This document shows, in pieces, positions 3,224 to 32,171 of a stretch of 32,972 nt of DNA (position 1 is its first letter; every line of letters starts with the position of its first letter). Source of the DNA: a virus. The stretch is taken from the IMG/VR virus record IMGVR_UViG_3300038701_001903, positions 1 through 32,972 of that record; one strand, given 5' to 3'. The position numbers and the translations under genes were made by a program. The notes beneath the pieces are model-generated. The model was not told the origin of the DNA. It saw only the letters and a list, made by a program, of their open reading frames with translations, and searched no databases.

Positions 3224-4087
3224 ATGAATAATAGCCAAAAAGAACAAGTACAAAAGGAGCTTTCAACGTTCGTTGATCGTTACCCAAGCCAAAAGAAAGC
3301 AGCCGCAATGCTTAGAGGGGTTAGCGAATCTATAATTATCAATATCAAAAAAGGTAATTGGGAATCTATATCGGATGAGATGTGGAGAAAAGTAGCTAAA
3401 CAAATCGGGCACTCTTCAGGGAGTAAATGGAAAATAACAGAGACAAAACCAACTAATCACATGAAAGCGTTTTTTGAAGACGCTAGAAGGTTTCAAAATA
3501 CTTTCGCTATGGTTTCCCCTGCCGGGACTGGTAAAACTTCAGCAGCGAAGCAATATGCGCTCGAAAACGATAATGTGTTTCATTTGAATTGCTCGGAGTA
3601 TCTTAATAGAAAAGCATTTCTTACTAAGCTATTGGAAAGCATGGGGCTTTCGATTAGTGGCAACGTGAGTTTTATGATGGACACTATCGTTGATGAAATC
3701 CATTCATTAAAAGACCCTTTAATTATCCTCGATGAAGCGGACAAGTTGAGTGATCAAGTATTGTATTTCTTCATTACTCTTTACAATAGGCTTGAGGGTA
3801 AGTGTGGCATCATTCTGATGAGCACGGACTTTCTTTCTACTCGGATCAATAAAGGAAGAAAGCTAAATAAAAAAGGGTATAACGAGATATTTAGCCGTAT
3901 TGGAAGACGATTTATAACCATAGGCGAAATGTCGGCTACAGATGTAGCAAGGGTTTGTGAGGAAAACGGAGTGCATGACCCTGAAACAATTCAAATGATT
4001 CAAAACTCATACGAAGGAGATTTACGAAGAGTGGAACGTGAGGTACACAAATACAAACGAATACAAGAAACTAAAACCGCAGCATAA
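3224..4087 (+). CDS. MuB-like AAA+ target-selection ATPase
   Basis: This 287-residue AAA+ ATPase follows the transposase by 18 bases. An N-terminal helical, HTH-like domain (residues 8-62, SQKKAAAMLRGVSESIIINI) is followed by Walker A SPAGTGKT (98-105), Walker B LIILDEAD (166-172), a sensor-like IILMSTD (196-202) and a candidate arginine finger in IFSRIGRRF (222-230). In Mu, MuB polymerises on DNA, captures target, stimulates MuA and gives target immunity. Domain order and gene order fit this role. The end of the gene overlaps the next start by one base (TAATG). Confidence 0.9.
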   Translation: MNNSQKEQVQKELSTFVDRYPSQKKAAAMLRGVSESIIINIKKGNWESISDEMWRKVAKQIGHSSGSKWKITETKPTNHMKAFFEDARRFQNTFAMVSPAGTGKTSAAKQYALENDNVFHLNCSEYLNRKAFLTKLLESMGLSISGNVSFMMDTIVDEIHSLKDPLIILDEADKLSDQVLYFFITLYNRLEGKCGIILMSTDFLSTRINKGRKLNKKGYNEIFSRIGRRFITIGEMSATDVARVCEENGVHDPETIQMIQNSYEGDLRRVEREVHKYKRIQETKTAA

Positions 4088-4533
4088 TGAAAACTTTAGT
4101 TAAACCACAGGGAGTAAAAACAGAGGTTCTAAGCAATCCTTTGACGGTAAAGGAGGAGATATGCCAATTCTTAGAGATGAGTGAATCTGAGTACTCACAA
4201 CTGCAATTTGAAAGGGCTTACGGTTACTTGACTGAATATCTACCATCAATAGATGATACTTCCAGAGATACGAAACAATGGTGGGTAGAAGCTCTAACAC
4301 AAAGTACTGTGTTTTGGGGTTGGTGGGTGAAGCAATGGGAGAAACGAGATTGTATGTTTTTAAATCAAAAGCCTCAAGCGGGAAATAATGGGTTTTATAG
4401 CCGGATGAAGTACATGGAGCTTCATAGTATTGAAGAGCTTTTAACATCTACTAAGATGTACGGTAGAATCACTAATGCCGCATATGAGGAAATGGTACAT
4501 AGAGTAATAAAGGAGGAGGTGAAGCGTGGTTAA
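4087..4533 (+). CDS. Hypothetical early protein, tryptophan-rich
   Basis: This 148-residue soluble protein is not recognised. It contains an aromatic cluster (QWWVEALTQS then FWGWWVKQWEKRD) around residues 64-88. It overlaps the ATPase stop by one base and the next gene by eight bases, so translation is probably coupled. The position between the transposition proteins and the DnaA-like gene suggests a DNA transaction role, but nothing in the sequence proves this. Confidence 0.7.
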   Translation: MKTLVKPQGVKTEVLSNPLTVKEEICQFLEMSESEYSQLQFERAYGYLTEYLPSIDDTSRDTKQWWVEALTQSTVFWGWWVKQWEKRDCMFLNQKPQAGNNGFYSRMKYMELHSIEELLTSTKMYGRITNAAYEEMVHRVIKEEVKRG

Positions 4534-4972
4534 TCTTGAATTATTAATGCGGTATACCTCGGAGTATTTCGGTGTAACTGTAGAGCAAGTAAAGTCCAAA
4601 AGTCAGGTAAGACCATTGCCGATGGTAAGAGGTGTGTTTTTGTACTTAGCAGATGAATACCACCCAGACATACCCGATAAGAAATTTGCAGAGATTATAA
4701 ACAGAGAGAGAAGTACTGTAGTAAGCCGGAAACAAAAGGTGTCTGCTTACTTCGATAGTCAGGACAAGGTAGTGACTAAGGCAATTGAAACCATAAAGAG
4801 GAAAATTGAAGAAGGGAACTATGTTGAAATTACTTTGGGAGGTTTGGTGGATGGAGATTTAATGACCCTGAAAAGAATGCTTTTTGAAGGAAAAGAATGT
4901 TGGCAAAACATGCCCGCAATCAAGGAGATAGATGCGGAAGTAACGAGAAGATTAATGTTAAATAATAAATAA
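4526..4972 (+). CDS. Stand-alone DnaA domain IV-like DNA-binding protein
   Basis: Residues 3-80 closely follow the C-terminal DNA-binding domain of DnaA: LLMRYTSEYFGVTVEQVKSK corresponds to the first helix and the 'SKxR' loop. Further on, FLYLADEY and INRERSTVVSRKQKV correspond to the helix and the RDHTTV signature helix that reads DnaA boxes. The AAA+ domain of DnaA is absent; the remaining 65 residues are unrecognised. The start is GTG at 4526, since no in-frame ATG precedes the domain, and a strong Shine-Dalgarno sequence (AGGAGGAG at 4511-4518) supports it. It could bind DnaA-box-like sites as a regulator or recruit host replication to the transposition intermediate; both are inference. 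Confidence 0.75.
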   Translation: MVNLELLMRYTSEYFGVTVEQVKSKSQVRPLPMVRGVFLYLADEYHPDIPDKKFAEIINRERSTVVSRKQKVSAYFDSQDKVVTKAIETIKRKIEEGNYVEITLGGLVDGDLMTLKRMLFEGKECWQNMPAIKEIDAEVTRRLMLNNK

Positions 4973-6676: not shown

Positions 6677-7080
6677 TCAATAATAAACAATTATCAGCTA
6701 TTCACGCACTATTGAATAAGCTTGATATGATGGACGATAAAAAGGCTATAGTAGAGCAGTATAGCAACGGTAGAACAACGAGTAGCAAAGAGCTTACAAA
6801 ATTTGAAGCTAAAGCGTTGATTGGAAACCTTAAAAGTATGCTCCCTCAAACAGATGAAGAGCAGAAGACCGAAAAGATGAAAAATAAGATCATCGGTATG
6901 GCTCATGATATCGGTTGGGAAATTGGTGATACTGGAAAAATAGATATGCCCCGGTTGAATAACTGGTGTATCAAAACAGGAGCCTTTGCCAAGGAGTTAG
7001 ACGACCATAATAGTAAAGAACTTGTAAAGCTTGTCAGTCAGTTTGAGAGGGTTTATGAGTGGAACATGAAAAATAGATAA
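6667..7080 (+). CDS. GemA-like regulatory protein (DUF1018)
   Basis: This protein has 137 residues from ATG 6667. An in-frame GTG at 6655 would add four residues. NNKQLSAIHALLNKLDMMDD, then GRTTSSKELTKFEAKALIGNL, follow the layout of the Mu GemA/gp16 family (DUF1018): a first helix, an S-x-x-LT-x-x-EA helix, and a C-terminal helical part with K-[IL]-W-like GMAHDIGWE. In Mu, GemA modulates host gene expression and DNA topology. The gene overlaps its upstream neighbour by ten bases. The C-terminal part ends VKLVSQFERVYEWNMKNR, which also fits. Confidence 0.65.
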   Translation: MELINNKQLSAIHALLNKLDMMDDKKAIVEQYSNGRTTSSKELTKFEAKALIGNLKSMLPQTDEEQKTEKMKNKIIGMAHDIGWEIGDTGKIDMPRLNNWCIKTGAFAKELDDHNSKELVKLVSQFERVYEWNMKNR

Positions 7081-7082
7081 TC

Positions 7083-7385
7083 ATGATAGCACCTAATAGT
7101 AAAGAAACATTAATAGTCTCGTTTGTGATAACGCTAATTCTAATAGCGATATCATTTTGGATCGAGCGGAAACAAGGAAAAGAAGACAATATGGAAGATT
7201 GGGTATATACGGATTTAGAGCCTGTAGAGCTGCCAGAAGATCAACAAGAAATTGAGTGGGTTGATTATAGAGGAACGTTGAGAGAGGGTGTTTATGAAGC
7301 CCATGGGAGAAAGTTCTATGCGTCTCCTAATGAATGGAATTACGTTTCTGATGTACAAAAATGGAGACCAGTGATATGGATGTAG
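7083..7385 (+). CDS. Small single-pass membrane protein, unknown
   Basis: This 100-residue protein has a clear N-terminal membrane segment (residues about 8-27, TLIVSFVITLILIAISFWIE). A KQGK basic stretch follows, then an acidic soluble domain rich in W, E and P (LEPVELPEDQQEIEW and onwards). Orientation is probably N-out with the body in the cytosol (positive-inside rule). It lies two bases after the GemA-like stop. I do not recognise a family; an accessory role at the host membrane is possible. Confidence 0.65.
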   Translation: MIAPNSKETLIVSFVITLILIAISFWIERKQGKEDNMEDWVYTDLEPVELPEDQQEIEWVDYRGTLREGVYEAHGRKFYASPNEWNYVSDVQKWRPVIWM

Positions 7386-18555: not shown

Positions 18556-19077
18556 ATGAAAACCACCATTCAACATACCGAAGTGAGAAACGAATTTTAC
18601 ACATTAAACGAGTTGTTTACAAGCTTGTTCCCTAGCGTAAAGGTTGAGCTTTTAAATGTCTTATTACTGACTAGCTCAATGGTTACAATTGCCGAGCAGC
18701 TTTTAGGGGTAGACTCCGTTGCAATATTGGCTTTGTTGGTGATGATGGTTTTTGAATTAGCTACAGGTATTTGGGCTTCATCTATTAGAAAGGAACAATT
18801 TTCTAGTAAGCGTTTATCACGCTTTGCAATTAAGGTGGCTTGTTATATGGTAATAATGGTAGTGCCTTATGTGTTCTATTCTTCTTATCAGGAACGCGGA
18901 GTAAACTCTGCGGCAATGGTCTTTGAGTGGATTCATGTGTTTTTAGTAATACACATTGTTCAAGAATACTTGGTGTCCATTTTAGAAAATCTTGCCTGTA
19001 TTCAGGGCAAGCCAAAAACATACTGGATCAATAAAATTAAAGATTCGATCACGAATACATTTAAGACGAAATCATGA
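18556..19077 (+). CDS. Phage holin family protein
   Basis: This 173-residue protein has four predicted membrane segments (about residues 32-48, 53-74, 89-109 and 118-140). The diagnostic block is ALLVMMVFELATGIWASS followed by the basic loop FSSKRLSRFAIKVACYMVIM, as in the phage_holin_4 group common in Bacteroidota phages. The C-terminal tail is basic and cytoplasmic (KTYWINKIKDSITNTFKTKS). It would form the inner-membrane lesion that starts lysis. It overlaps the spanin gene start (ATGA at 19074). Confidence 0.85.
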   Translation: MKTTIQHTEVRNEFYTLNELFTSLFPSVKVELLNVLLLTSSMVTIAEQLLGVDSVAILALLVMMVFELATGIWASSIRKEQFSSKRLSRFAIKVACYMVIMVVPYVFYSSYQERGVNSAAMVFEWIHVFLVIHIVQEYLVSILENLACIQGKPKTYWINKIKDSITNTFKTKS

Positions 19078-19654
19078 AAAAAACAGGATTTATATTAACC
19101 CTTTTAGGAGTGCTTGCCTTAACACTGAGTGTGTTTACGGGTTGTGTTACCTCCAAGAAAAAAGACAAGGTTGCAAAAACCGAAGTAACAAAGGTTGTTG
19201 AGCACGAATTGAGCTACGAAGTAGCGAATGTAGATAGTACTCAAACATCGCTTAAAACGGTTACAACCGTAAAGCATTTTGATGATGAATTGAGTGGTAG
19301 TGTGCATCTAGTTCCTTTTGAAAAAGATAGTATCGAAAGTGACGGCTTAAAGATAGTTACCCAATTGATACCCCAGAAAAATGGAGGTTACAAAGTAAAG
19401 ATACAGGGGAAAGCAAAAGCGGTCTCTAAAACGGAAACGATAAGCGAGCTTGATAACTCTTCATCTTCTATAGCTTCCACGAATATAAAGGATACAAAAA
19501 CAGATGTAGAAAACACCAAGAAAACCAAGGGTAAATCTGTAAAAAAAAAATGTTACCCGGATGGGCTGTGTGGCTCCTCATTATCCTCATCCTCTGTCTG
19601 TTGGCTTATACAGGATATAAATGGTATTCAAAATCTATCCCTTTTAAAAAATGA
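19074..19654 (+). CDS. Probable unimolecular spanin, made by -1 frameshift
   Basis: Residues 1-24 are a lipoprotein signal with lipobox FTGC (C24). Residues 25-158 form a long hydrophilic periplasmic part rich in K, T, S and V. In the starting frame the coding sequence then runs into nonsense beyond an A10 tract at 19541-19550. In the -1 frame, from 19550, it continues MLPGWAVWLLIILILCLLAY, then TGYKWYSKSIPFKK and a stop at 19652-19654. That tail is a membrane helix with a basic end. The -1 stop overlaps the endolysin start as ATGA, which shows it is the true gene end. An N-terminal outer-membrane lipoprotein signal plus a C-terminal inner-membrane helix is the architecture of T1 gp11-type u-spanins. 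The predicted fusion is about 193 residues. A sequencing error in the A-run is the main alternative. Confidence 0.75.
19541..19550 (+). other. A10 slippery tract in the spanin gene
   Basis: Ten consecutive A residues encode Lys codons immediately before the point where the frame must change by -1. Such runs allow both ribosomal slippage (A AAA AAA type) and RNA polymerase slippage, producing a mix of products. Confidence 0.7.
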
Positions 19655-20214
19655 CAAATCAAGAACTATTGAACAAAGTAAAAGTCTTGCTCTTAGATGG
19701 AACATTGATTCCTCTAATCGAGTGGCAAAAAACATACGGTTTACCAACAAGCAGTTTACGAGTAGGCAAGCATTTTGGAGTAGACACCGATCATCGTTTA
19801 AAGCGGGATATCATGAGCTACGGGGAGCTAATAGTATGTGCTCCACTTATCCAATTACTAGACGACTACAGGGAGGCAACAGGCAGGACTACGATAAACT
19901 CATTCAATCGCAACTCAGCCAAACAACGCTATTTACGACAAATGGGCTATCGAGCGGCGACAATGAGTACGCACGAAAAGAAAGTGGCAGCGGATATAGA
20001 CACGGTGAGCGAGAAGGAAACCCGCGAGAATGTAAAGTTGCTCAAACAACTAGCAGCCAAGCGCGGATTAAAAATACGTGTGGGGTGGAAAAAGTACATA
20101 GAGAACGGGCAAACGTTTATTCACTTGGATGTTGCACCAATGTACTATGCCGAAGGGATGCCATGGCATGACCACGCTCACCCTTCCCAGTGGGAACGAG
20201 AAGTGACTTGGTAA
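19651..20214 (+). CDS. Endolysin, M15-type zinc peptidase
   Basis: This 187-residue protein matches the peptidase M15 pattern. MSTHEKKVAADID carries ligands H108 and D115 in the form 'S-x-H-x-x-G/K-x-A-x-D'. FIHLDVAP near the end carries H158 in HLD. An upstream helix PLIQLLDDYREATGRTTINS and the SAKQRYLRQMGYRAAT stretch fit the D-Ala-D-Ala or L-Ala-D-Glu peptidase fold. It would cleave the peptide part of murein. There is no signal peptide, so export through the holin is needed. Its ATG overlaps the spanin stop. Confidence 0.8.
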   Translation: MTNQELLNKVKVLLLDGTLIPLIEWQKTYGLPTSSLRVGKHFGVDTDHRLKRDIMSYGELIVCAPLIQLLDDYREATGRTTINSFNRNSAKQRYLRQMGYRAATMSTHEKKVAADIDTVSEKETRENVKLLKQLAAKRGLKIRVGWKKYIENGQTFIHLDVAPMYYAEGMPWHDHAHPSQWEREVTW

Positions 20215-20241: not shown

Positions 20242-20583
20242 GTGAAAAAGAGAATAGAACATGTGTTTAAAACACATCCAAAAGCAAAGGAAGTACATAC
20301 AACTTCTGACGAATTGATCTTCTTAAATGATCATGATGCTCACAATCATGCTAAGACTCTTAAAAATACTGACGTTAAGACGGTAAAGAAGGGTGATAAG
20401 ATTGAGGAGGATGAACCAGAAAAAGGAGGCGGTAAATACCCTGAAGGAGAACCGAAAGAGGGGTGGAAATCTGATGAGCTGAAAGCTTATATGGATGAAA
20501 AGGAAATTGCCTTTAAAGGAGATGAAACAAAGAAAGAGTTAGTAGCTCTAATTGTTGAAGCTCAAAAGCCAAAAGAAGACTAA
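20242..20583 (+). CDS. HeH/SAP-like small protein
   Basis: This 113-residue protein has a GTG start. The N-terminal part is a short alpha/beta segment (RIEHVFKTHPKAKEVHTTSD, then LIFLNDHDAHNHAKTLKN). The centre is a Gly/Pro/Glu-rich linker (EKGGGKYPEGEPKEGW). The C-terminus, SDELKAYMDEKEIAFKGDET followed by KKELVALIVEA, is a helix-extended loop-helix (HeH, LEM/SAP-like) domain. Such domains appear in small phage proteins next to tail genes. Function unknown; it precedes the sheath and is followed by a terminator. Confidence 0.65.
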   Translation: MKKRIEHVFKTHPKAKEVHTTSDELIFLNDHDAHNHAKTLKNTDVKTVKKGDKIEEDEPEKGGGKYPEGEPKEGWKSDELKAYMDEKEIAFKGDETKKELVALIVEAQKPKED

Positions 20584-31139: not shown

Positions 31140-32171
31140 ATGTCGAAATCAGGTATTCCATTAAGACCGTCTAAAGGGTCAACTTCAGAAGCAGTAATAA
31201 GAACGGACGCTACAGGAGGTGTTTTGTTTAACCGTAACGCTGTTTATCGTTTAGATGCTGTTGGGGTGATCTCTGTTGCAGAGTTAGGGCATAGCGTGAA
31301 TGAACGAACGGTTATGCTTATTTTGAATGGGGACTGTTCATTAGACCTTGGAGGGTATGATGTTGTGGTTGAGGGAGACAAAGAAAGTGTTAATGCTAAC
31401 GTATACACTTTTGATACCACAAAAACCAATGTGGTAATATTGTTCTGGGATGGTGAGAAAATCGCTAGGGCTTCAAGCCAAAAGAGTGCCTTGTCTGTTG
31501 CTTACAGTTCCGTTGCTGCTATTAGTTTTAATGGGATTGATGAATATATTGAAGTCGCATCTAATTCTCTTTATGCTATTAATCCTTTACATGAAAGAAC
31601 GATTTCTTTTTGGGTAGAGTCTGGCGGTGCTGCTAATCAAGCAATAGTGGGGCAATTCGGTAATAATTCCGGCGCTGTTCCATTGGGGTGGATGGTTAGA
31701 CAGAAAAGCGGTGGCGGCATCGAGATTAAGGTGTTAAATAACTCAGGTAGAGAAATTCGTGTGGAGACGAACACGGCGCTCCCTTCAGGCAAAACGCATG
31801 TTGTTGTTGTTTATGATCAAAAGACTGTAACAATATATTTTGATTCTGTATCACAAGCTACAACGGTGCATAGGTCGGATTTGTTGGATGGCGATTTAAC
31901 TTATGATGCTCTCTTGAATTTTAGAATGGGAGCACACAATGAGGGGCATTATGCGGATATAACGCTAGATGAAGTGTCTTTATTTAGTGAGGCGGCAACA
32001 CAAACACAGGTTAATACTTTATACAATAGTGGGACTCCGTTAAACCCTGATGATTTTGAGTTAGCGCTAATAGAACACTTCGATATGAATACAATCACAC
32101 CGGTGGGTGTAAATGGCGCTGTGAGTACTCAAACGGGGCTAGATGGTTCTAATATAGTAAACGGGTTTTAG
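31140..32171 (+). CDS. LamG/concanavalin-like domain tail protein
   Basis: In this 343-residue protein, residues 1-105 form a short beta-rich N-domain (DATGGVLFNRNAVYRLDAVG, then EVLILNGDC-type strands). From about 125 a LamG/ConA-like lectin domain follows: SFNGIDEYIEVASNSLYAIN, HERTISFWVE, a central KTHVVVVYDQKTVTIYFD, and a closing ADITLDEVSLFSEAATQTQV with the 'L-Y-N-x-G-x-P' end. Such domains bind surface carbohydrate. Directly upstream of the esterase, it may target it to host glycans. A separate polypeptide, not a fusion. Confidence 0.72.
   Translation: MSKSGIPLRPSKGSTSEAVIRTDATGGVLFNRNAVYRLDAVGVISVAELGHSVNERTVMLILNGDCSLDLGGYDVVVEGDKESVNANVYTFDTTKTNVVILFWDGEKIARASSQKSALSVAYSSVAAISFNGIDEYIEVASNSLYAINPLHERTISFWVESGGAANQAIVGQFGNNSGAVPLGWMVRQKSGGGIEIKVLNNSGREIRVETNTALPSGKTHVVVVYDQKTVTIYFDSVSQATTVHRSDLLDGDLTYDALLNFRMGAHNEGHYADITLDEVSLFSEAATQTQVNTLYNSGTPLNPDDFELALIEHFDMNTITPVGVNGAVSTQTGLDGSNIVNGF

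Follow-up and report, generated by a model that had tools for sequence, protein, structure and literature searches.

A predicted unimolecular spanin divided between two reading frames at a poly-A tract in a probable Mu-like phage and three relatives

T1 gp11 and the 13 unimolecular spanin (u-spanin) families described by Kongari et al. (2018, PMC6139136) have the same lipobox, beta-rich cysteine-free domain and cassette position as the phage gene analyzed here, and a C-terminal helix that this gene holds only in its -1 frame. The prototype u-spanin, however, is one continuous frame, whereas the chain described below needs a -1 shift; where that paper speaks of a frameshift, it means the frame of an o-spanin gene with respect to its i-spanin gene. 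Lambda Rz/Rz1 also places an outer membrane (OM) lipoprotein and an inner membrane (IM) helix in different frames of one locus, but these are separately started proteins, while our split gene has no start before the helix in two of four lineages. The tail-assembly chaperone gpG/gpGT resembles the split spanin in that one phage gene gives two products with a common N-terminus, but it serves the tail rather than lysis, and its -1 frameshift is ribosomal and uses other slippery sites. The same run of about nine A or T residues at a frame boundary occurs in poly-A slippage and programmed frameshift genes (dnaX, IS transposases, Shigella mxiE/spa13, and a magnesium chelatase cluster; PMC5009743, PMC3711429), which are likewise conserved across relatives and have a fused product known from in-frame homologues. 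We found no spanin among these poly-A recoding examples, and the word "spanin" occurs 0 times in the available text of PMC5009743.

The gene lies in a virus record of 32,972 bases, the whole of which is referred to as the window. It carries the Mu-type genes Portal_Mu, Phage_Mu_F, Mu-like_Pro, a DUF2586 sheath, and TMP_3. Because relatives of the sheath protein are almost all found in Bacteroidetes genomes, many of them Chitinophagaceae, the window is, judging from its genes, most likely a Mu-like phage of Bacteroidetes. A late gene at 31140-32171 has a Laminin_G_3 lectin-like domain and might encode a tail protein that binds the host. In the lysis cassette the order is holin, spanin (19074-19654), endolysin, with an ATGA overlap at each joint (Table 1), which satisfies in the window the u-spanin criterion of a position beside holin and endolysin. 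The endolysin homologue of one relative, L003, matches annotated M15 peptidases.

Table 1. Features of the window lysis cassette and positions of the split spanin genes in three relatives
Sequence	Feature	Position	Strand	Evidence or remark
Window	Holin, Phage_holin_4_1 family PF05105	18556..19077	+	Pfam 1.6e-11; PHROG 199 holin; stop overlaps spanin start as ATGA
Window	Frame-0 u-spanin part: predicted signal peptide, lipobox FTGC, beta-rich periplasmic domain, three AAA Lys codons (159 aa)	19074..19550	+	Sequence, AlphaFold2 models, homologues
Window	A10 putative slippery tract, frame boundary, 0-frame GTA AAA AAA AAA TGT	19541..19550	+	Sequence; A9 at homologous boundary in L003, L004, L038
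Window	-1-frame C-terminal membrane helix and basic tail, TGA 19652-19654	19550..19654	+	Translation, hydropathy
Window	0-frame read-through of tract, 206 codons without helix, across endolysin gene out of frame	19551..20171	+	Translation
Window	Endolysin, M15 peptidase-like	19651..20214	+	PHROG 894 endolysin 1.4e-5; alignment; ATG overlaps -1-frame stop as ATGA
L003	Split spanin	3366; A9 at 3786-3794
L004	Split spanin	3549; A9 at 3990-3998
L038	Split spanin	4455; A9 at 4872-4880

A preliminary description of the window had placed a lipoprotein signal and the lipobox FTGC at the start of the gene and a C-terminal helix in the -1 frame, ending on the endolysin ATGA. Both features are seen in the translations. 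The chain from ATG 19074 contains the lipobox in the context SVFTGC, as expected for the N-terminal signal and lipobox cysteine of a u-spanin, and the -1 frame past the A10 tract gives MLPGWAVWLLIILILCLLAYTGYKWYSKSIPFKK*, with a best 17-residue hydropathy of 2.64 and a TGA that overlaps the endolysin ATG at 19651. The 0-frame past the tract reads CYPDGLCGSSLSSSS.. and, with a best 17-residue hydropathy of 0.93, has no membrane helix. The description had stated that the starting frame loses sense after the tract; no helix follows there, but there is no early stop and the frame stays open to its end in Table 1. Its expectation of a truncated or read-through soluble lipoprotein as the unshifted product needs adjusting, since the product would be a lipoprotein of 365 residues, neither truncated nor soluble. 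As the 0-frame has no helix and the +1 frame past the tract contains stops, only a -1 shift near the tract joins the lipid anchor to the helix, and a -1-frame stop just upstream (TAA at 19532-19534) confines that shift to a few bases around A10.

The -1 product has no cysteine between C24 and the helix. AlphaFold2 models of the frame-0 part (not of the fused -1 protein) showed strands between residues 41 and 123, with a core pLDDT of ~80-88 but a mean of only 55-57, so that the u-spanin criterion of a beta-rich periplasmic domain without cysteine is met on low-confidence models with a better core. A fold search of the periplasmic domain returned nothing significant. No PHROG or Pfam match was obtained for the frame-0 part, nor any PHROG match for four in-frame relatives (see below). 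By layout, the fused protein would match the u-spanin design of T1 gp11, an OM lipoprotein and an IM helix in one chain, as had been proposed for the window; this presupposes the shift, and a role in lysis is inferred.

Direct spanin and endolysin searches of viral contigs and phage records gave nothing or only distant M15 peptidases, and profiles of the holin and the spanin, run against genomes, yielded few matches or only weak ones; it was alignments of sheath, capsid, endolysin, and holin that led to the relatives. Three other lineages (L003, L004, and L038) were observed to have the same split layout. Their tracts are nine As long, in the 0-frame register NNN AAA AAA AAA NNN that is common to all four phages; the helix is present only in the -1 frame, whose stop forms ATGA with the endolysin start. 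Lipoboxes in relatives include ALTSC, LLTAC, and AICSC. L003, L004, and L038 are not near copies of the window, because their spanins are only ~26-28% identical to its spanin and the holins of L003 and L004 only 47-48% identical to its holin. In L004, the -1 frame opens within the A9 tract itself. Trees of the capsid, the spanin domain, and the holin did not separate a single from a repeated origin of the split. All four split phages are metagenomic contigs, available as consensus sequences without raw reads.

Many other phages and prophages of the group encode a lipoprotein with a C-terminal helix in one open frame, often 3' of the endolysin. In the 21 in-frame relatives that we checked (a count that leaves out L065), lipobox and helix share a frame and A-runs within the gene reach at most 4-8 As; the pattern YGDxL..ESxGIKx..AKPVA in the domain is common to the window and several of them. 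The nearest in-frame neighbor cassette, L046, has an endolysin 60% identical to that of L038, and its junction is in frame, without a long A-run, and with the same ATGA. Among the relatives examined, none had its frames joined across a long tract. Since the in-frame relatives are single chains with A-runs of at most eight, they indicate the identity of the fused product and that a long tract accompanies the split. The question raised in the preliminary description of whether lipobox and membrane segment lie in one frame in homologues therefore has two answers: they do in these 21, and they lie in different frames in L003, L004, and L038, so that in the four split phages the helix belongs to the same chain only if the gene is recoded.

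In the sequence examined for each phage (32,972, 8,752, 8,894, and 8,912 bases), no A/T run other than the spanin tract reaches nine. Dinucleotide shuffles of the window contained 3.8 such runs on average, versus one observed; long A/T runs are rarer than expected elsewhere in the window, yet one is kept at the spanin boundary. The four -1 tails had a mean BLOSUM62 score of 43.2, a value reached by 0 of 500 shuffles (maximum, 30.2), compared with 15.8 for the 0-frame tails and 9.0 for the +1-frame tails, each of the four +1 frames containing a stop. A shared hydrophobic make-up, which the shuffles retain, accounts for part of the -1 score. Two criteria for poly-A recoding are thus met, namely a boundary tract conserved in divergent homologues and a downstream protein conserved in the -1 frame; a third, the absence of an independent downstream start, is met on L003 and L004, while the window has an ATG at 19550 after the A-run and L038 has TTGs in the helix segment.

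We think it likely that the gene encodes a unimolecular spanin whose OM lipoprotein half and IM helix, observed in different frames, are joined by a -1 shift of a fraction of expression at the A9/A10 tract. The same reading had been offered for the window's A10 and gains support from the homologues, both split genes with A9 and single-chain in-frame forms, although the shifting itself, its rate, and the role in lysis are inferred without expression data. Most likely, RNA polymerase would add one A or lose two; a ribosome slipping by -1 on A AAA AAA is the alternative or a contributor. The protein would be identical by either route, apart from one Lys that is dropped when two As are lost. The shifted product of 193 aa would consist of the lipid anchor, the beta-rich periplasmic domain, KKK, and the C-terminal helix, and would bridge the outer and inner membranes in the final step of lysis. 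The unshifted lipoprotein, without the helix, would form no bridge.

In the absence of slippage data, we lean toward transcriptional slippage because the runs are at least nine As long even though AAG makes up 30-41% of Lys codons in the four phages, and because no downstream RNA structure was detected. Folding of the 90 nt downstream of the tract was no better than that of shuffles (z, 0.4 to -0.8), and a search for a stable structure of the kind that stimulates ribosomal shifting gave z values of 1.3 to -1.0 in eight folds, with pseudoknots outside its scope; run length is therefore the remaining visible signal. Nine-residue A/T runs lead to polymerase slippage in bacteria (PMC5009743), and tests in E. 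coli with a different gene gave shifting of 10% at 7 As, 40% at 9, and 63% at 11 (PMC3711429). A purely ribosomal -1 shift, by tandem Lys-tRNA slippage without RNA heterogeneity, remains possible, as the shared register fits A AAA AAA in all four phages and this heptamer is a listed ribosomal slippery motif (PMC3711429). Seven As would suffice for such a shift, yet all four phages have nine or ten, no downstream structure accompanies them, and Bacteroidetes ribosomes work without Shine-Dalgarno pairing (PMC6847099, PMC9976891), which removes one usual stimulator. Since A9/A10 also contains the heptamer, the two mechanisms are not separated.

Explanations that dispense with recoding fare worse. 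The helix might belong to its own 34-residue protein, initiated at ATG 19550 as an i-spanin-like partner of an o-spanin-like frame-0 lipoprotein; in the window this ATG is preceded by As, and an A at -3 favors initiation in Flavobacterium (PMC6847099). We regard this as improbable, because no ATG, GTG, or TTG precedes the helix in the -1 frames of L003 and L004, which excludes a separate helix gene there, because L038 has only TTGs within the helix segment, and because the in-frame relatives are one chain. L003 and L004 accordingly lack the separately started IM subunit that defines a two-component spanin, and the relatives that share the cassette order are without the two independent genes that would have spoken against the preliminary description. 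Poly-A tracts of about nine to ten As can change length by slippage mutation, so the tract could also be a phase-variable contingency locus, with the population switching between spanin-on and spanin-off states; this seems still less probable, as the consensus sequences of all four share one out-of-frame state and none of the relatives examined had a long tract with joined frames. Homopolymers are error-prone, but sequencing or assembly error, or decay of the gene, is the least credible reading: four unrelated contigs would need the identical error at the identical boundary, two metagenomes yielded contigs of the L038 type that match at 100% across 6,460 bases, the -1 frame preserves the tails at the protein level, and each cassette is otherwise intact. 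A run-length error peculiar to the window contig appears very unlikely, given that the split frame recurs with a 9-A run in relatives, which answers the other objection named in the preliminary description.

Recoding of the spanin gene may also help endolysin expression in the window phage, an inference from the fact that 0-frame ribosomes pass the endolysin start while -1 ribosomes stop on it. The effect would not be general, because the 0-frame of L003 and L004, too, has its stop right ahead of the endolysin start. It is doubtful, though conceivable, that the slip ratio is a built-in lysis control in which excess unshifted lipoprotein competes with or restrains the bridging spanin and the same slip sets the amount of endolysin by reinitiation.

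We found no paper combining a u-spanin with poly-A recoding in the searched literature, which did not include most subscription journals, in agreement with the earlier remark that no described u-spanin controlled by slippage was known to its author. Both the spanin type and the kind of recoding are known; the combination, with conservation evidence, is new as far as that literature shows. If our interpretation is right, this would be, within the same limits, the first spanin that needs recoding for its membrane-bridging form, with one gene giving a two-product lysis protein. Bacteroidetes, which do not use Shine-Dalgarno pairing, would offer a natural test of recoding without that stimulator. 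Spanin surveys based on single open frames can miss recoded genes; in one survey, 91 of 677 phages (~13%) were listed as spanin-less (PMC6139136). We looked at two of these, B124-14 and Croceibacter P2559S, and saw no hidden recoded spanin. In Bacteroides phage B124-14, a protein with an N-terminal membrane helix (record positions 6765-7370) adjoins a putative peptidase and looks i-spanin-like; no partner for it was identified.

Some further features of these cassettes were apparent. The lysis cassette (window 18556-20214, compared with L003, L004, and L038) seems to have been exchanged between related Mu-like phages: all four have the same holin and split spanin, three have an M15 peptidase and L004 an amidase, and the capsids of the four do not group together. 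A small gene 3' of the endolysin (L003, 4442-4972; L004, 4584-4997) has long EAEAKAKAEA-type repeats in some relatives, which are absent from the window counterpart at 20242-20583. In L118, one open frame of 337 codons (3489-4502) spans an amidase-type endolysin and a lipobox u-spanin without an intervening stop, which could be read either as an endolysin-spanin fusion or as an internal start at ATG 3958.
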